From a virus, in IMG/VR virus record IMGVR_UViG_3300005529_000064, positions 1 to 41,573 of that record: 41,573 nucleotides of DNA. One strand, written 5' to 3'. Both the position numbers and the translations under genes were made by a program. The notes below the pieces were generated by a model. The model saw nothing but the letters and a program-made list of their open reading frames with translations, did not search any database and had not been told where the DNA came from. Positions within the stretch are counted from its first letter, which is position 1. Every line of letters starts with the position of its first letter. Below, one piece after another: positions 5,943 through 19,415 of the stretch.

Positions 5943-6280
5943 GCGTTCCTCCGCGCCTCGTAGGCGGCCAGGTAGTCGGTGATGCGCTGCGACTGGACCG
6001 AGCTCATGCGCGAAGGCACGTGCCAGCGGTTGTCGTAGGCGCACAGCACGCCGCGCACGTACCGCTTGCGCTCCTCCGGCGGCTTGTGCTTCCACATAGG
6101 GACGTGCTCGTGGTCAGTCACCCACTGCACGCCGCTACGCCTATGACAGACGGGACATTTCCAGTCCTGCGCTGCCATGAGCTCCAGCCATTCCTCGACC
6201 GTGAGGCCGTATCGGCGCAGCGTGGCGACACCCGGCGGCTTGACGCCGCGCCGGGTCGCCTCCCGCTCTAGGGCGGTCAC
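5939..6280 (-). CDS. Endonuclease VII-like HNH nuclease, 113 aa
   Basis: LRRYGLTVEEWLELMAAQ followed by DWKCPVCHRR and VTDHEHVP (DHxH), then RYVRGVLCAYDNRWHV, is the layout of phage recombination endonuclease VII. These enzymes cut Holliday junctions and branched DNA before packaging. The zinc site looks incomplete: the first CxxC is present, but the second pair, normally CNxCN-like, reads CAYDN with one Cys. The protein may still fold, or use another ligand. GTG start from GTGA overlap with the primase gene. Confidence 0.8.
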   Translation of the reverse strand: MTALEREATRRGVKPPGVATLRRYGLTVEEWLELMAAQDWKCPVCHRRSGVQWVTDHEHVPMWKHKPPEERKRYVRGVLCAYDNRWHVPSRMSSVQSQRITDYLAAYEARRNA

Positions 6281-7941
6281 GAGCTCGGTTCCCAGCGCGG
6301 GCGGTCGCCGAGCCAGCCAAGCTCCAGCCCGCGTATATCGCCCTTCGTGTCGCGAATCTCCCCGGTCAGATAGAACGGGTTCGCGAAGCGCGCGGCCTTA
6401 TTGTTCTTCATCGTGAACCGCGCCGGCTGCCCGGGGCGCCACTCCCCGGCCTTCTTCATGAGGATCGCTACGTCGACCTGCTGACGCTTGGCGCTCGCGT
6501 CGCGGGGCTCGTCCTCCTGCGCGTAGCCCGTGTGGTCGATCAGCACGACCGAGCAACCGACAACGTGCATCACGTAGCGCACGCGGCGAGCGAACTCGAT
6601 CGCCTTGGCGTTGCCGTCCTCGCTCCGCGAGTTGAACGCATGCGAGTACGTGTCCAGCACGATCACGTCCGTGCCGCGGCCGTCGCCCCAATCGCTCTCG
6701 CGCTTGACGAGTGCCTCCACCTGGCGCGGGTCGTTGAAGTCGATCGGCTCGTTCGTCAGTCGGAAGTTCGCTGGGTCCGGACGCCAACGGCGTAGGCGGC
6801 CCTTGTCGGTCGTCGGCGGGTTCTCCAGGCTGTAGAAGCTGGAGCGCACGCCCTTGTGACTCCCTTCGCAGAGCAGGCCGAGCCACGTCATTGACTTGGA
6901 CGCCTCGGTCGCGCCGTACACGAGCACGTAGGCGTTCTTAGGGAGCAGCGGGTGGCAGTAGAACGGGAGCTCCTCGTCCTCGCCGTTCCAGTCCATCCAG
7001 AAGCGGCCTTCGGCCTCGGCGTCGCCCGGCGTGCTGATGTCGAACGTGCCGGCGGGGCGCCCTACGCCGGCAGGCGCCGCACCCCGCTCTTCCGCTACCC
7101 GTCCGCCCTCGGGCGCCCCAAACGTCTCGATGTTCACGGCCTCGGCCTTGAGCCGGGCTTGGCGCGGCACCTGCATCCCGGCCTTCCAGCCGGACTCGAT
7201 CGTCGCGCGTGCCTCTTGGAGGTCCAGGCCGACACGCGGCGCCACTTCGGTCAGCGCCGTGAGCGCGGCCTTGCGGCTGATCTCGCCGCCTGCGCAAAGC
7301 TGCGACAGCGCGAACGCGGCGCGGTTGAGGGCGTTGTTTCGTTCGCCGGCCGGCGCTGTCGCCAGTCGCCCCATCTCCCGCTCGAGCGCGGCCATCCCGT
7401 AGGGCGTGCCTTCCTCCCATGGGAAGAACTTGGGCTCGCTCGCTTCGTCGCTGCCGTCGACGACCTCGGGCACCACGATCTCTTCGAGGAGCCACTCAGG
7501 CGCGGCGACGGGCGCCGTGTCGTTGATGATCTTGTAGCCGGCGCTCGGCGGCGCGATGACGTAGCCCTTGCCGGCCTTCTTGATGTCGACGCCGGGGCCG
7601 AGCTTCCCGCGGAGCGCGATCCCGTCAGGGACCGTGAAGTGGTAGTGGAACCCGCCCGACTTGGTCCGCACGGTGCGGGTAGGCGGGAGCTCCTTGCCGT
7701 CGTTCTTGAACAGGAGCAGGGTCTTGTCGCCGCCGTTGCGCGGGTCGACATCGAGGACGAACGTGCCCGGCGCAATGGCGGCGCCGATCATGCCGTCCCA
7801 CGTCCACGCCTTGATGGCCTCGACGTTCGTCGTGGCGTCGTGAAACCCGTTGGGTGTTCGCGGGGCCTTGTCGGCCCCGCACGGGAACACCCGGACGCCT
7901 TCCGCGGCGAGCGCGAGTGCGGCGTCCTTGAGGTCGGTCAC
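6277..7941 (-). CDS. Bifunctional primase-polymerase / replicative helicase, 554 aa
   Basis: Residues 1-160 form a prim-pol domain: FVLDVDPRNGG (D64, D66), SGGFHYHF (95-102) and VDIKKAGKGYVIAPPS. Residues about 325-540 form a RecA-like ATPase of the RepA/AAA_25 type with Walker A YGATEASKS (342-350), Walker B DVIVLD (425-430) and a later VVLIDHTG strand. It should prime and unwind phage DNA. Walker A has Ala where GKS-type loops have Gly (ASKS instead of GKS), a notable departure although the catalytic Lys-Ser remains. GTG start chosen by GTGA overlap with the exonuclease gene; an in-frame upstream extension is inside that gene. Confidence 0.88.
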   Translation of the reverse strand: MTDLKDAALALAAEGVRVFPCGADKAPRTPNGFHDATTNVEAIKAWTWDGMIGAAIAPGTFVLDVDPRNGGDKTLLLFKNDGKELPPTRTVRTKSGGFHYHFTVPDGIALRGKLGPGVDIKKAGKGYVIAPPSAGYKIINDTAPVAAPEWLLEEIVVPEVVDGSDEASEPKFFPWEEGTPYGMAALEREMGRLATAPAGERNNALNRAAFALSQLCAGGEISRKAALTALTEVAPRVGLDLQEARATIESGWKAGMQVPRQARLKAEAVNIETFGAPEGGRVAEERGAAPAGVGRPAGTFDISTPGDAEAEGRFWMDWNGEDEELPFYCHPLLPKNAYVLVYGATEASKSMTWLGLLCEGSHKGVRSSFYSLENPPTTDKGRLRRWRPDPANFRLTNEPIDFNDPRQVEALVKRESDWGDGRGTDVIVLDTYSHAFNSRSEDGNAKAIEFARRVRYVMHVVGCSVVLIDHTGYAQEDEPRDASAKRQQVDVAILMKKAGEWRPGQPARFTMKNNKAARFANPFYLTGEIRDTKGDIRGLELGWLGDRPRWEPSS

Positions 7942-8996: not shown

Positions 8997-8998
8997 CG

Positions 8999-9340
8999 CT
9001 ACGCCTGGCGGATCAGGATGGAGCGCCCGACCTGCTCCAGCTTGATCGTCACCGTGTCGGCGTCCTCGCGAGCGAGGTACTCGTTCAGCTGCGCGAGCAG
9101 CCTGTCGCGCGACTCCACCGTCCCGATCGGGAAGCTGATGGCGCGCTCCTCCTCGTCACCCGTCTCCGGGTTCGGAACGACGACCTGCGCCACGTAGCGC
9201 GGGCCGTACTGGTTCTGCTGATCCTCGACGACCTTGGTCACGGTCATCGGGATGCCGTTCTCCATGAGGACCTTCTTCTCCGCGGCGCCGATGAAGGTGC
9301 CGAGGCTGCCGACGTCCTCGTACTCGTCCCAGAAGCCCAA
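8999..9340 (-). CDS. Conserved phage-type protein, possible single-strand DNA binding, 113 aa
   Basis: Begins GFWDEYEDVGSLGTFIG and has a beta-rich core (GPRYVAQVVVPNPETGDEEE, then RAISFPIGTVESRD) and KLEQVGRSILIRQ at the end. The alternating strands could be an OB-like fold, which together with the replication context suggests, but does not show, ssDNA binding. TTG start chosen because AAAGGGGG lies about 6 bp upstream. The start opens a new sub-block after a 132-bp noncoding gap. Confidence 0.6.
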   Translation of the reverse strand: MGFWDEYEDVGSLGTFIGAAEKKVLMENGIPMTVTKVVEDQQNQYGPRYVAQVVVPNPETGDEEERAISFPIGTVESRDRLLAQLNEYLAREDADTVTIKLEQVGRSILIRQA

Positions 9341-9472
9341 ACGGGCCCCCTTTCGTGTTCGTGCTGGCGGGCAGCGCCCGCGGTGTTGCGACCAGGTGCA
9401 AGCGCGGGGCGGCGGGATCACTTGGCCCCTATGCGTCTCCCGCCCTTAGAGGGCCTTCGGCCCCGCGCCAGT
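9341..9472 (-). other. Noncoding gap with hairpins
   Basis: No gene seen. It holds two short hairpins: GCGGGC-AGC-GCCCGC (about 9367-9381) and GGGCC-TTC-GGCCC (about 9449-9463). The second sits just after the stop of the upstream gene and may slow transcription. One of the few breaks in the tightly overlapping operon. Confidence 0.4.
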
Positions 9473-9715
9473 TCAGGGAGTTACGTAGCCGTGCGCCCGC
9501 GTGAGCTCGCCGCGCTTGCCGGCGGCGTCCTCGCGTAGGGCATCCATGTAGCCACGGCCGTACGCGATGCGGAGCAGCGACGCGAACGCTGCCCGCGTGT
9601 CGTCGTCGTCCAGGATGGGCCCGAGTACGCTCTCGCACTCGGCGATGACGGACCATGACTCGATCAGTCGCAGGTCGATGTCCGCCGCGAGCTCGCGCAG
9701 TCGCTCTTCGGTCAC
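9473..9715 (-). CDS. Hypothetical protein, 80 aa
   Basis: An acidic helical protein (TEERLRELAADIDLRLIESW; ILDDDDTRAAFASLLRIAYG) with a more basic end. GTG start overlaps the stop of the upstream membrane micro-protein. The pattern with RIAYGRGYMDAL is typical of small helical phage proteins. No function can be assigned. Confidence 0.6.
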   Translation of the reverse strand: MTEERLRELAADIDLRLIESWSVIAECESVLGPILDDDDTRAAFASLLRIAYGRGYMDALREDAAGKRGELTRAHGYVTP

Positions 9716-9792
9716 TTCGCAGCCTCGAGGCCCAGGACGATGACGCCCAGGATCACCGCGTAGAGCCAGAGCAGTTGCGCGAGCGGGCTCAC
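9712..9792 (-). CDS. Membrane micro-protein, 26 aa
   Basis: Nearly the whole peptide is one hydrophobic helix (LAQLLWLYAVILGVIVLG). GAGGAG lies 5 bp ahead of the GTG start and the stop overlaps the next start (GTGA). An even smaller frame just upstream (9789-9818, ATGA-coupled, nine residues MTDAAEEQA) contains this ribosome site and may only pass ribosomes along. Confidence 0.5.
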   Translation of the reverse strand: MSPLAQLLWLYAVILGVIVLGLEAAK

Positions 9793-9814
9793 GCCTGCTC
9801 CTCAGCGGCATCGG

Positions 9815-10012
9815 TCATACGACCGGCCCCCCGATGAACTCCGGCCCGTTGCGCTGGATCTCGCGGACGCACTCGTCGCACCGGACGTAACTCCCGCCGA
9901 CGCCTTCGAGCGCTTTCTCTTCATCCGTCAGCGGGGACTCACACGTCGCGCACAGGCCGTGCTCACGCAGATAGTCCAGGTCCCGCTTCGGAGCGGCAGA
10001 GCGACTATCCAC
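9815..10012 (-). CDS. Small zinc-ribbon protein, 65 aa
   Basis: CATCESPL and VRCDECVREI form two CxxC knuckles 20-odd residues apart, the spacing of a zinc ribbon. GTG start lies in the end of the upstream gene (8-bp overlap). Likely binds nucleic acid or a protein partner; no named family. Confidence 0.65.
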   Translation of the reverse strand: MDSRSAAPKRDLDYLREHGLCATCESPLTDEEKALEGVGGSYVRCDECVREIQRNGPEFIGGPVV

Positions 10013-11881: not shown

Positions 11882-11979
11882 AGATGCACGCCGAACAGCG
11901 CGCACGCGGTCAAGACGCCAAGCGCCAGACCGAAGGCGTAGATGAACGCCACGAGAAACGTTGCGACGAGATGGCTCAC
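11878..11979 (-). CDS. Membrane micro-protein, 33 aa
   Basis: After MSHLVATF it is one long hydrophobic segment (LVAFIYAFGLALGVLTACAL). GTG start overlaps the stop of the dioxygenase gene (GTGA) and the stop overlaps the next start. Located directly after the DNA-modification candidate, though no link is shown. Confidence 0.55.
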   Translation of the reverse strand: MSHLVATFLVAFIYAFGLALGVLTACALFGVHL

Positions 11980-12929
11980 GCCGTCTCCTCTCCTGAAAGG
12001 CCGAGCGCCTTGCCGGCACGCTTCTCTTGAAGCGCCACGCGGCGAGCGTTCTCTTCGGCCAACGTGCCGCACTCCACGATGTCGGTGCGGAAGTAGCTGA
12101 CGATGCTGATGCGCTCGGGCGGGTGTTCCTCGCCGAAGTCATTCATGTACGTGCAGTAGTGGCCCGGCTTCCGGAGCGTCTCGCCGCAATGCGAGCACGC
12201 CATGGGCGTATTGCCGTGCCACTCGTGCGCGTCCATGAGCAGGACGTCGCCGTCCTTCATGTCCACGGCGACGCCGTACTGCGGGAAGCTGAGCCAGCCG
12301 CCGTCGTAGGCACCGCGCCGGATGCAACCGAGCGTCGAGAAGCCGGCGTCCAGGTCGCCCTTGTCCGTGTGCAGGCCCGTCGGGTAGGTGTTGTTCACCG
12401 TGATCGTCGTGAACGGCGTGCCGGCGATGACCCAATCGGGGCTCGCGTTCTCGACCGCCACCATCTGCGCGGCGTACCGCTCGGGCACGTACTCCTCGAA
12501 CAGGCGCGCGATGCGGTCGAAGTACGGGAGCAGTCGCTCCCACTCCTGCACCTTCTGCGCGGTGAACGCGGTCAGCCGGCAATACTGCATCGCGCCGACC
12601 GCCTCGAAGCTGCCGAGGATGGAGCTCATGACCGGCACCGTCCGCGAGCGCGTCCCAGAACCGCGCGTGATGGCGCGCTCACCGCCGCTCGCGTAGCCGC
12701 GGTTGTCGGTCAGCATGCGGATCTTCGTGAACTCGGGGTAGGTCTCGTCCCCGACGTCCTTGGCAGCACCCGGCAGGTAGACGGCGAGCGGCTTGCCGTT
12801 CGGCTTGAGCACGCGCGCCGGGCCCTCGAGCTTGACGCTGATCATCTCGGGGTTCACCTGGGCGCCTTTGTACTTCTCGACCCACTCGTCGCTCCGCTTG
12901 GTGCGGGCGCGGAACTCCAGGAGCTCCAT
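11976..12929 (-). CDS. TET/JBP-like 2-oxoglutarate/Fe(II) dioxygenase, 317 aa
   Basis: Residues 176-281 contain the signature of the phage TET/JBP group: NNTYPTGLHTDKGDLDAGFS with the iron-binding HxD (H187, D189), GGWLSFPQYGVAVDMKDGDV, the distal histidine in DAHEWHGNT (H235 or H238), and RISIVSYFR with an Arg for 2-oxoglutarate. TET/JBP enzymes oxidise the methyl group of 5-methylcytosine or thymine in DNA; phage members (5mYOX) prime bases for further decoration. A Cys cluster (CSHCGETLRKPGHYC, 245-259) is inserted between the distal His and the Arg. The first 110 residues hold no known domain. ATG start is 1 bp overlapped with the upstream stop. Function is inferred from motifs; the substrate base is unknown. 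Confidence 0.8.
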   Translation of the reverse strand: MELLEFRARTKRSDEWVEKYKGAQVNPEMISVKLEGPARVLKPNGKPLAVYLPGAAKDVGDETYPEFTKIRMLTDNRGYASGGERAITRGSGTRSRTVPVMSSILGSFEAVGAMQYCRLTAFTAQKVQEWERLLPYFDRIARLFEEYVPERYAAQMVAVENASPDWVIAGTPFTTITVNNTYPTGLHTDKGDLDAGFSTLGCIRRGAYDGGWLSFPQYGVAVDMKDGDVLLMDAHEWHGNTPMACSHCGETLRKPGHYCTYMNDFGEEHPPERISIVSYFRTDIVECGTLAEENARRVALQEKRAGKALGLSGEETA

Positions 12930-13126
12930 CAGAGTGAGTAAGCCCGAAGCGCAACGTACGGATCGTTGCCCCGGTCGCACTCGATCGCCTCTCGGAACCG
13001 CGCGCCAAGCTCGACGCCCAAGCAGTGAGCGGCTGCCCACAAACGGAGCTCGCTCTCCTTGAACGTGAGCGAAACCGTCACCGTGACGTCCCGGTCGACC
13101 GGCGCTTCGTTGTGCATCGTGATCAT
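12929..13126 (-). CDS. Hypothetical protein, 65 aa
   Basis: ATG at 13126 overlaps the upstream stop (ATGA); a longer start is not needed. A beta strand pair (VDRDVTVTVSLTFKESELRL) leads to helices (WAAAHCLGVELGARFREAI). No family recognised. It lies between the glycosyltransferase-like and dioxygenase genes and could belong to their module. Confidence 0.6.
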   Translation of the reverse strand: MITMHNEAPVDRDVTVTVSLTFKESELRLWAAAHCLGVELGARFREAIECDRGNDPYVALRAYSL

Positions 13127-13326
13127 GCGTCGTCCTCCCATATGCGCAGTTCTTCGCGCGTGTCGTTGAGGGCCTCTGTGTGAAGGCCGTGCGCCGCGGC
13201 ATAGGTCTCAGCGTCTGAGATCAGTTGGCGCCAGTCGGCCGCGAAGTTGCCACTCCGGTCATCGATGACGGAGAGCTCCGCCTGAACCCAGGCGTCGAGC
13301 AACTCCTGATGCGTCTTCGGCCTCAT
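13123..13326 (-). CDS. Acidic hypothetical protein, 67 aa
   Basis: Helical and Asp/Glu-rich (TREELRIWEDDA at the end; HQELLDAWVQAELSVIDD near the start). ATG overlaps the stop of the glycosyltransferase-like gene. Unknown function. Confidence 0.6.
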   Translation of the reverse strand: MRPKTHQELLDAWVQAELSVIDDRSGNFAADWRQLISDAETYAAAHGLHTEALNDTREELRIWEDDA

Positions 13327-14033
13327 CGGTGGCGCTTCGGCGTCGTGAGCAGGACCTCGTTCTCGCGCCGCGGGTTCAGGCGGAGCATCCCCGGCCACTT
13401 GGCCATGAGGTACGCGATCGTCTCCTGCTCAAGCTGTGCCGTCCGCGACGCAACGGCGCCGCCGGCATTCGTGTAGTGGGCGAAGCTCGGCGCGATGTAG
13501 TCGCAGCGCGCCGCGCCGCCGTAGGTCATCCAGTTCTGGAGCGTGAAGTCGTAGTCCTCTTTCAGCCGCAGGTTCTCGTCGAACCGGAGATCGGTGGGGC
13601 GGACCATGATCAGGTCGCCGACGACGAACTTGCGCGTGCTGACGCCCTCCTTGGCGAAATAGAGGTTGTCGGTCGGTGAGCAGCCGCAGAGCGCGAGGCC
13701 CGTGTCGTCCAGGGCCGCGTCCATCTGCGCGAGGGCCCAGCCCAACGTTACGTCCTGCTTGGGCAGCGCCCGCAGGCGCTTGATGTCGTCGCTCAGCTGG
13801 ACGCATGCCACCGGCTCGGGCAGGTAGTTGAATGCGTGCTGGAGCGCAAGGTTCCGCGCCCCGACAAGGCTGCCCGGGTCGATCATGACGTTGGCGCCCT
13901 CGGCCTCGTACGAACCGGCATCGCTCCTCGGCACCACCCAGAACACGGGCGCGTCGACGGTCGCCAGGTGCGGAGCCAGCCGCTCCACCGAAGCGGGGCG
14001 GCCGGCGCTGATGACGTACAGGGCGTAGTTCAC
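13323..14033 (-). CDS. Glycosyltransferase-like protein, TET/JBP-associated type, 236 aa
   Basis: Starts YALYVISAGRPASVERL, the nucleotide-sugar-binding first strand of GT-A folds. It then has VGARNLALQHAF, CVQLSDDIKRL with a DD pair (D82-D83) in the place of the metal-binding DxD, and RFDENLRLKEDYDFTLQ with the acidic E/D group. This matches the glycosyltransferases (TAGT) found beside phage TET/JBP dioxygenases, which are thought to glycosylate the hydroxymethylated base. Here the dioxygenase is two small genes downstream in the same operon. GTG start by GTGA overlap. Confidence 0.72.
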   Translation of the reverse strand: MNYALYVISAGRPASVERLAPHLATVDAPVFWVVPRSDAGSYEAEGANVMIDPGSLVGARNLALQHAFNYLPEPVACVQLSDDIKRLRALPKQDVTLGWALAQMDAALDDTGLALCGCSPTDNLYFAKEGVSTRKFVVGDLIMVRPTDLRFDENLRLKEDYDFTLQNWMTYGGAARCDYIAPSFAHYTNAGGAVASRTAQLEQETIAYLMAKWPGMLRLNPRRENEVLLTTPKRHR

Positions 14034-14221
14034 TCGTCGTCCTCCAGGAGGCGACGCATTCGCGTCCCGAACATCAGCAAGATGTTCCGCTCCGCAGGCG
14101 ACTCGCGGTTGTCGTAGACGAGTGACGAGAAGATCGTGACGCCGCCAGCCTTGATGGAAGCCCACCGCTGGCCCGGCACGGACTCGGGTCCTAGCTCGAT
14201 CTCAAGCTCCAGCGCGGCCAT
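14030..14221 (-). CDS. Hypothetical protein, 63 aa
   Basis: Reads as a small beta sheet (LELEIELGPES; WASIKAGGVTIFSSLVYDN) with a basic end (GTRMRRLLEDDE). ATG overlaps the upstream stop (TGATG). No family recognised. Confidence 0.6.
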   Translation of the reverse strand: MAALELEIELGPESVPGQRWASIKAGGVTIFSSLVYDNRESPAERNILLMFGTRMRRLLEDDE

Positions 14222-14929: not shown

Positions 14930-15081
14930 GCGAACCCCCTCCAGACGAGAGCGGCCGTTGCGACCGCCGTTGCGACGTAGATCGCCAGCGTGATCGCGTT
15001 CAGGACTGCGACCTTGAGCCACGTGAAGTACGGGTGGCGCAGGTGTCCCGGGCTAATGAACCACGGAAAGACGCGGTCCAT
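14926..15081 (-). CDS. Small membrane protein, 51 aa
   Basis: An N-terminal part rich in aromatic residues (VFPWFISPGHLRHPYFTW) precedes one transmembrane helix (VAVLNAITLAIYVATAVATA). ATG shares a base with the ParB-like gene stop (TGATG) and the stop overlaps the next ATG. Confidence 0.6.
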   Translation of the reverse strand: MDRVFPWFISPGHLRHPYFTWLKVAVLNAITLAIYVATAVATAALVWRGFA

Positions 15082-15719
15082 CAGATGCGCTCCACTGCCT
15101 CGTCGATGGCACGCTCCACCGTGTCGACGACGGTGCTCGTGCCGTACGCCTTCTGGAGGCGCGCGACCTTCTCGCCGAACTTCTGCGCCCGGCTGACCGT
15201 CATGAGCATGACGATGTCGCGCATGGGCTCTGCCGGCGCCTTGGCCGTCTCGGCCTTCACCTTGGCCGCCTTCTCGGGCGGCGCCTGCTTGACGACCGCA
15301 CCCGTGTCCGTGTTCTCGACCGCGTTGGCGCCGAGTGCATCGCCCAGCGTCTCCACGTAGTCGATGTCGTAGCCCGTGCCGTCGAGGTCGAGCAGGCCCT
15401 CCAGACTTTCGTAGAGCTTCGCCTGGTCGTAGCTGGCGCGGTCGGACGTGCGGTTGTCGGCCAAGAGGTACGCCTCGGCCGTCTCGTCGTCCATCTCCAG
15501 GAGGACGGCCGCGATCTCGTCCCAGCCGAGGCTCTTGGCGGCTTCGCGCGTGTGATTGCCGGCGACGACGTAGCCCGTCGACTTCTGCACGAGGATCGGC
15601 TTGACCTGGCCGAACCGCGTCAGCGACTCAGCAATGGCCTCGACGTTGCCTTGGCGCGCATTCTTCGGGTGGGCTTCGACAGTGTCGATGCCGATGACTT
15701 CGACTGCGAGCTCACTCAT
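15081..15719 (-). CDS. ParB/sulfiredoxin-like domain protein, 212 aa
   Basis: Residues about 1-110 form a ParB N-terminal domain: VEAHPKNARQGNVEAIAESL, FGQVKPILVQ, VVAGNHTREAAKSLGW (the GxxR-type nucleotide-binding motif) and AEAYLLADNRTSD. There is no partner ParA and no parS seen, so partition is unlikely. ParB-like domains of this type occur next to phage DNA-modification genes, and both the glycosyltransferase-like and dioxygenase genes are downstream in this operon. ATG at 15719 chosen because GAGGAG is 8 bp upstream; the GTG at 15728 is too close to it. Confidence 0.75.
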   Translation of the reverse strand: MSELAVEVIGIDTVEAHPKNARQGNVEAIAESLTRFGQVKPILVQKSTGYVVAGNHTREAAKSLGWDEIAAVLLEMDDETAEAYLLADNRTSDRASYDQAKLYESLEGLLDLDGTGYDIDYVETLGDALGANAVENTDTGAVVKQAPPEKAAKVKAETAKAPAEPMRDIVMLMTVSRAQKFGEKVARLQKAYGTSTVVDTVERAIDEAVERI

Positions 15720-16101
15720 ACCGCTCACTCCTCGGGATCAGGTTCCAGCCCGCCAGGCCGACGAGCAGGTTGCTCTCAGCCATGACCGGGTTGCCGTCGT
15801 CGTCCTGCCAGGTGCGCCGCTTCGTCGGCGGCGTCAGGCCGTACATGGCGCCGATCGCCGTCCCGTCGTAGAGCTTCGCGTCGGCCGGTTCGGCCTCGGG
15901 GTAGGGCAGCGGGTCGTAGTCGCGGCTGCACGTTGGCGAGCAGACACAGACCGTCGCGTGCGCCGTCGGCTCGCCGTCCTCGTCGATGAACGTGTCACCG
16001 TGGACGAGGAAGTTGAGCCGGCATGCGGCCTCGCGGTTGCGCCGCTCGGCGTGCTCCTTCGCGACCGCTTCGCGCGCCTGCAATGCAGTCAGGCCGCTCA
16101 C
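15712..16101 (-). CDS. Hypothetical protein, 129 aa
   Basis: A helical start (LTALQAREAVAKEHAERR) precedes a Cys pair (CVCSPTCSRDY, about residues 51-61), followed by Pro/Glu-rich and loop regions, and ends SNLLVGLAGWNLIPRSER. GTG start by overlap with the upstream stop. No family recognised; a small metal site is possible. Confidence 0.6.
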   Translation of the reverse strand: MSGLTALQAREAVAKEHAERRNREAACRLNFLVHGDTFIDEDGEPTAHATVCVCSPTCSRDYDPLPYPEAEPADAKLYDGTAIGAMYGLTPPTKRRTWQDDDGNPVMAESNLLVGLAGWNLIPRSERYE

Positions 16102-19341: not shown

Positions 19342-19413
19342 AGCGGGATGGCGCAGTGGTAGCGCGGCGGCCTCATAAGCCCCAGGTCGCAGGTTCGATT
19401 CCTGCTCCCGCTT
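19342..19413 (+). tRNA. tRNA with CAT anticodon (tRNA-Met, or tRNA-Ile2)
   Basis: 72 nt folding into a full cloverleaf: acceptor AGCGGGA/TCCCGCT, D arm GCGC-AGTGGTA-GCGC, anticodon loop CTCATAA, T arm GCAGG-TTCGATT-CCTGC. One mismatch (C-C) lies in the anticodon stem. CCA is not encoded. The CAT anticodon may read Met, or Ile ATA codons if the C is modified to lysidine. The acceptor stem pairs fully, including the first pair, so it looks like an elongator rather than an initiator. Confidence 0.9.
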
Positions 19414-19415
19414 CT

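Follow-up and report, generated by a model that had tools for sequence, protein, structure and literature searches.

The DNA analyzed here, called the window throughout, is a complete record of the IMG/VR database (IMGVR_UViG_3300005529_000064; 41,573 bases), and it carries a leftward operon coding for a TET/JBP-family DNA dioxygenase (P0001) and a TAGT-type glycosyltransferase (P0002), with a gene for a ParB-like protein upstream on the same strand (Table 1). We think it fairly probable that these proteins form a DNA hypermodification pathway in which thymine is oxidized in the virus's own DNA and is then glycosylated, yielding a nucleotide that resembles base J, with the ParB-like protein as an associated factor; the substrate base, the sugar, and the targeting are inferred from comparison with related loci.

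The only Pfam family matched by P0001 was Tet_JBP (PF12851; E value 7.7e-22; score 77.7 bits, cut-off 34.9), which was also matched by 45 of 45 aligned relatives. Neither the J-binding domain of JBP1 nor the SNF2 domain of JBP2 was found in P0001 by the Pfam scan. The original prediction had recognized an HxD motif, a distal His, and an Arg in this protein. These correspond to H187-x-D189, H238, and R273 (the Arg expected to bind 2-oxoglutarate), which were invariant in the 45 aligned relatives and in 74 members of the clade and were conserved as well in the separate TET clade of Melnitz-type phage loci. The segment RISIVSYFR (residues 273-281) aligned without gaps to RISLVFYQH of TET2, whose letters were checked in PDB entry 4nm6. 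An AlphaFold model of P0001, built with its relatives, had a mean predicted local distance difference test (pLDDT) score of 92.4 and the double-stranded beta-helix fold of TET enzymes. The top fold match was NgTET1 in complex with 5-methylcytosine (5mC) DNA (E value 5.4e-12), and the 26 best matches among solved structures were all of the TET type (NgTET1, CcTet, human TET2, and CMD1), followed by FTO. NgTET1, CcTet, TET2, and CMD1 act on methylated bases in DNA, whose methyl group they oxidize or conjugate. When P0001, P0002, and the profiles of both were searched by sequence against the solved structures, no useful match was returned, since the proteins are too distant. From sequence and model together, P0001 is assigned as a TET/JBP dioxygenase, as originally predicted, and the profile search did not place it among protein or small-molecule hydroxylases. 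Between the distal His and the Arg (residues ~245-258), P0001 has a CxxC...C insertion (ACSHCGETLRKPGHYC) that is present in loci L001 and L003 and lost in L002 and others; this insertion could be a small zinc site.

P0002 alone matched the TAGT family (PF20691) weakly (E value 0.0021; 18.4 bits, below the 27.5-bit cut-off). Its assignment was secured by its family, in which 22 of 31 members matched PF20691 at an E value of 0.01 (best, 4.7e-22), and by its model, which had a pLDDT of 94.2 and a GT-A fold, with GT-A enzymes among the top structure matches. P0002 also matched PHROG 842 (E value 3.7e-5), and hhalign connected its family to the TAGT of Nonlabens phage P12024L with 98.9% probability. 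D82, located in an SDD/DDD motif, and D160 were invariant in the 31 aligned members, as expected of an acidic metal/nucleotide-sugar motif. The predicted glycosyltransferase of the TET-linked type was thus upheld, and P0002 is best described as a divergent TAGT relative with a GT-A fold, not as a clean member of PF20691. A scan of viral contigs with short patterns from P0002 found no relatives, and scans with the oxygenase were used instead.

The oxygenase scans covered viral contigs and bacterial genomes and gave 23 close relatives and about 90 loci of one clade. Many of the records are fragments. Loci were counted as full-flank (n=28) if their sequence extended for 5.5 kb or more upstream of the oxygenase and for 4.5 kb or more downstream of it, and 72 dereplicated loci were used for module counts. 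A ParB-like homologue was present near the oxygenase in 28 of 28 full-flank loci; this constant partner, encoded upstream in the window, had been overlooked in the original prediction. The same 28 loci contained either a TAGT (13 loci) or a P-loop kinase (PF18751) together with an amino acid:DNA transferase (PF18724) (14 loci), never both, and one locus contained neither. Among the 72 dereplicated loci, 40 had only the kinase, 25 only the TAGT, four both, and three neither (Fisher p 4e-12 for exclusion, which is a guide only because the sequences are related). A TAGT was thus near the oxygenase in 29 of the 72 relatives, showing its genetic linkage to TET, and one or other finishing enzyme was near it in 69. 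In the window itself, neither the kinase nor the amino acid:DNA transferase was found within ~10 kb of P0001.

When TAGT and kinase labels were placed on a tree of 88 oxygenases, at least 13 changes were required, of which the starred branches alone force 10 to 11, and two oxygenases that are 89% identical are accompanied by different modules (TAGT in L068, kinase and transferase in L087). Given these repeated swaps and this closely related pair, it is simplest to suppose that the product of the oxygenase is one and the same hydroxymethyl base in either type of locus, so that the oxygenase would act as a hub with exchangeable finishing modules.

Some loci showed variations of this arrangement. 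Two tandem ParB-like genes lie upstream of the TAGT or kinase and TET genes in L065, L068, L070, L075, L083, and L087. Three TAGT-like genes are present at L063:3323-6481 and two each in L030 and L023, which suggests serial addition of sugars. The full-flank locus with neither module, L092 (Actinomadura rayongensis, NZ_WUTW01000008.1), contains between 5048 and 13000 a radical SAM-like open reading frame (ORF), a C5-methyltransferase (6134-7033), a ParB gene, an ORF that weakly matches family-4 glycosyltransferases (8997-10001), and then TET; this arrangement may amount to a third type of finisher and a pathway via 5mC. In Pelagibacter phage HTVC112P (L094, 5366-7588), an FkbM-type methyltransferase comes after ParB and TET and may be a further finishing module.

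The original prediction had left the choice between thymine and host-made 5mC open, and the comparative evidence now favors thymine. As predicted, no C5-cytosine methyltransferase was found in the window record. PF00145 occurred in only 1 of 71 virus records of the P0001 clade, whereas 66 of the 71 loci examined from the Melnitz TET clade had a C5-methyltransferase, indicating that the gene is detected where it is present. In the sister loci, the amino acid:DNA transferase is a homologue of phage M6 gp51 (local profile E value 1.4e-21; PF18724 E value 1.4e-46); none of the 71 Melnitz-clade loci contained this transferase. M6 makes its hypermodified thymidine from 5-hydroxymethyldeoxyuridine (5hmdU) via a DNA kinase (PMC6449724), and a characterized 5-hydroxymethyluracil (5hmU) DNA kinase did not phosphorylate 5-hydroxymethylcytosine (5hmC) (PMC6457204). 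The ParB-TAGT-TET order of the window recurs in a prophage (L091) of Haloechinothrix alba, and the draft genome of this bacterium gave no PF00145 match genome-wide, even at an E value of 10. The residue aligned with TET2 H1904, which we take to be a base-contacting residue, was Arg in 74 of 74 clade members versus Asp in 65 of 68 members of the methyltransferase-linked clade, although this argument from the active-site pocket is only suggestive. The rarity of the methyltransferase, the gp51-like transferase, the L091 host, and this Arg support thymine indirectly, and we consider it the likely oxidized base, provided that the pathway is real. Thymidylate synthase/hydroxymethylase (PF00303) was absent from the 50 records searched (the window and those of 49 relatives), which makes an M6-like route through a modified nucleotide unlikely; a pyrimidine hydroxymethylase was likewise absent from the window record.

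Several observations weigh against thymine, and most of them fit an explanation in which the same two enzymes act on host-made 5mC and produce glycosylated 5hmC. The other phage TET clade adjoins C5-methyltransferases, and phages with such linked enzymes make glycosylated cytosine according to literature cited in PMC12730594. T-even TAGTs use hydroxymethylcytosine derivatives, those of T2 and T6 acting on glucosylated hydroxymethylcytosine (PMC13216743). Two loci of the P0001 clade, G015 and L092, do come with a C5-methyltransferase, located within the record or close by, and the host of prophage G324 has C5-methyltransferases elsewhere in its genome. Actinophage relatives have Leu instead of Arg281. 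D192 aligns with TET2 N1387; both clades have Asp there, and the residue was rejected as active-site evidence for the choice of base. The kinase of the sister loci (PF18751) does not belong to the characterized 5-hmU DNA kinase family (PF18748, that of M6 gp54), and a divergent kinase was matched in 27 of 71 Melnitz-clade loci, the copy of Melnitz itself falling below the Pfam cut-off; the kinase was consequently dropped as sole proof of thymine. Identity between the window oxygenase and its nearest kinase-linked counterpart does not exceed 50%, and the substrate base, the sugar, and the role of ParB all rest on inference. Nevertheless, we consider oxidation of host-made 5mC unlikely. The methyltransferase is lacking in 70 of 71 records, the L091 host has no PF00145 at all, and the M6-type transferase of the sister loci never occurs in the methyltransferase-linked ones; moreover, 5mC made by a host would sit at few motifs and would vary between hosts.

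Alternatively, the oxygenase could act on DNA while P0002 acts elsewhere, for example on cell-wall or receptor glycans of the host as in phage serotype conversion, leaving the DNA with a hydroxymethyl base only. The weak Pfam match of P0002 alone is consistent with this, as are its GT-A structure matches, which are enzymes of glycan metabolism in general, among them TarP, a teichoic-acid enzyme. We regard this explanation as quite improbable: the TAGT gene lies in an operon with overlapping starts, TAGTs recur beside the oxygenase in distant phages and swap with DNA-acting enzymes, and the P0002 model has no obvious membrane segment. An oxygenase that erases host methyl marks, as a demethylase or counter-defence enzyme, is a very improbable alternative; TET enzymes can oxidize 5mC further, as is known in eukaryotes (PMC12730594), but the near-constant presence of a hydroxyl-using finisher speaks for the hydroxymethyl group being an intermediate that is capped in a later step. 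It is hardly credible that the profile match misleads and that P0001 hydroxylates proteins or small molecules; this reading was rejected by profile and fold, although the 2-oxoglutarate-Fe(II) superfamily is broad and 2 of the 45 relatives weakly match 2OG-FeII_Oxy_3.

In the favored pathway through thymine, P0001 would hydroxylate the C5-methyl group of a pyrimidine in replicated phage DNA using Fe(II), oxygen, and 2-oxoglutarate. This reaction class is well supported, and the base would most likely be thymine, giving 5hmU. P0002 would then move a sugar from a nucleotide-sugar onto the new hydroxyl to give a base-J-like nucleotide; glycosyl transfer is well supported here, and the acceptor and the sugar are the presumed parts of the step. 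Because it is the most constant partner, the ParB-like protein is a probable recruiter of the oxygenase and may bind DNA or pick the sites to be oxidized. In the sister loci, an oxygenase of the same type would feed the P-loop kinase and the amino acid:DNA transferase. The benefit to the phage is likely protection from restriction and other bacterial defences that target DNA.

The features of the operon are listed in Table 1. The two enzyme reading frames, of 317 and 236 amino acids (aa), are as originally described, and so are the sizes of the two small genes between them when these are read from their ATGA overlaps. The junctions are GTGA, ATGA, ATGA, and TGATG start/stop overlaps, confirming that the genes are coupled in a single operon. 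The ratio of nonsynonymous to synonymous change (pN/pS), calculated against two relatives, was 0.27-0.57 for P0001 and P0002, indicating purifying selection. The 65-aa gene was conserved only in L001 (61% identity) and L002 (46-49%), the two closest relatives, with a pN/pS of 0.46-0.63, and the 67-aa gene had no homologue in any related locus fetched. Although coupled in the operon, both genes are judged by this distribution not to be core components of the pathway, which weakens the earlier suggestion that they might belong to it.

Table 1. Features of the proposed modification operon and its ParB-like neighbour in the window.
Feature	Coordinates	Strand	Basis
P0001, TET/JBP-family Fe(II)/2-oxoglutarate DNA dioxygenase, 317 aa	11976..12929	-	PF12851, fold, and invariant residues
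Small protein, 65 aa, coupled to oxygenase start (TGATG overlap)	12929..13126	-	ORF read from ATGA overlap; no Pfam or PHROG family
Small protein, 67 aa, coupled to glycosyltransferase stop (ATGA overlap)	13123..13326	-	ORF with coupled start; no Pfam or PHROG family
P0002, TAGT-type GT-A glycosyltransferase, 236 aa, GTG start	13323..14033	-	Family alignment and fold
Small protein, 63 aa, stop overlaps glycosyltransferase start (GTGA)	14030..14221	-	ORF; no Pfam or PHROG family
ParB-like protein, 215 aa, proposed DNA-binding/targeting factor	15081..15728	-	PF02195 (E value 3.1e-7), PHROG 723 (E value 1.7e-39)

The record has a G+C content of 68.6%. It codes for an SPP1-type portal, a capsid protein, a scaffold, a long tape-measure protein, and a lysozyme-like glycosyl hydrolase, as well as for a family A DNA polymerase, a primase-polymerase, and a large serine recombinase; the nearest matches of its portal were portals of actinobacteriophages. 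Judging from these portal, capsid, tail, polymerase, and recombinase genes and from the similarity of the portal, the record is taken to be the genome, or most of the genome, of a temperate actinophage-like siphovirus. A deoxynucleotide monophosphate kinase (1419-2063, -; PF21448, E value 5e-14) and a weak 5'-deoxynucleotidase-like match (850-1695, -; NT5C, E value 0.001, below the cut-off) were detected on the strand that carries the TET operon, at its far end. A tRNA-Met (CAT) gene (19342-19414, +) lies close to the point where coding switches strands between the replication arm and the structural arm.

This kind of pathway is already known. Iyer and colleagues are said to have predicted in 2013 that phage TET/JBP enzymes form base-modifying systems with glycosyltransferases, kinases, and ParB-like proteins, a paper to which PMC6449724 refers for predicted pathways, and Burke et al. 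(as cited in PMC12730594) reportedly demonstrated the 5mC route of the phage C5-methyltransferase, TET, and glycosyltransferase pathway by experiment in 2021. The window would add a member, and the thymine version in viruses is unproven. The present comparison is sharper in the constancy of ParB, the exclusive and repeatedly exchanged finishers, and the near-absence of a methyltransferase, which together turn a base-J-like product in phages into a testable prediction. As in the C5-methyltransferase pathway of Melnitz-type loci, TET and a glycosyltransferase would modify phage DNA after replication; in contrast, the window lacks the C5-methyltransferase, and its enzyme belongs to a separate TET clade with a ParB partner and other active-site residues (R118, H235, N240, R281). 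In the kinetoplastid base J pathway, a TET/JBP thymidine hydroxylase acting on DNA (JBP1/JBP2) is likewise followed by a separate glycosyltransferase (the glucosyltransferase JGT), and thymine is the base proposed here; the window operon differs in having a ParB-like partner and not J-binding or SNF2 domains. Base J has been reported only from kinetoplastids and their relatives (PMC11065753).

The thymidine hypermodification systems of phages M6, ViI, and phiW-14 share 5hmU as the proposed intermediate, and the PF18724 transferase family occurs in the sister loci of the window. Their 5hmdU enters DNA as a nucleotide, whereas the window lacks a thymidylate-synthase-like enzyme and the hydroxyl would be made in DNA and capped with a sugar. 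The cassettes of Rhodococcus phage Tonitrus, Gordonia phage MossRose, and Arthrobacter phage Ottawa resemble the window in having a ParB-like gene followed by a TET-like gene; they differ in their distant TET branch (~25% identity) and in a kinase/transferase finisher in place of a TAGT. The ParB, TET-like, and kinase cassette of Tonitrus has been annotated as a thymidine hypermodification system (PMC11955845). In Synechococcus phage S-CBWM1 and phage P12024L, TET is followed directly by TAGT as well, but these proteins are only 24-36% identical to those of the window, and no ParB homologue was found nearby. S-CBWM1 (L099) further differs in carrying, at 6408-7139 directly after TET-TAGT, a glucose-1-phosphate thymidylyltransferase and a phosphatase, which hints at a deoxythymidine diphosphate (dTDP)-sugar donor in that phage. 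Solitary TAGTs, likely novel transferases, were reported in 288 of 753 phage genomes (2026 paper, PMC13216743).

Some database labels in this group are misleading. The TET/JBP enzymes of the isolated phages HTVC112P, DLP6, Cr30, and S-CBWM1 are annotated as SNF2 DNA repair proteins, and M6 gp54, which matches the 5-hmdU DNA kinase family, is annotated as a terminase small subunit (together, loci L094, L095, L096, L099, and L175).

Taken more widely, the evidence tips slightly towards P0001 being one of a clade of JBP-like thymine dioxygenases that would be widespread in phages, always partnered by a ParB-like protein, and the hub for swappable finishers; the TAGT version would oxidize thymine within phage DNA and so make base J or a close sugar analogue there, and the clade may be the prokaryotic counterpart, and possibly the source, of the kinetoplastid pathway. 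As far as our literature search reached, a thymine route ending in a sugar is not known to have been demonstrated in a phage. If the proposed pathway is true, DNA of the base J type exists in bacterial viruses; it would then be possible to test where the kinetoplastid pathway came from, and enzymes for installing 5hmU and a sugar on native DNA would be at hand. The swap of modules would then also serve as a rule for predicting modification products from genome sequence.

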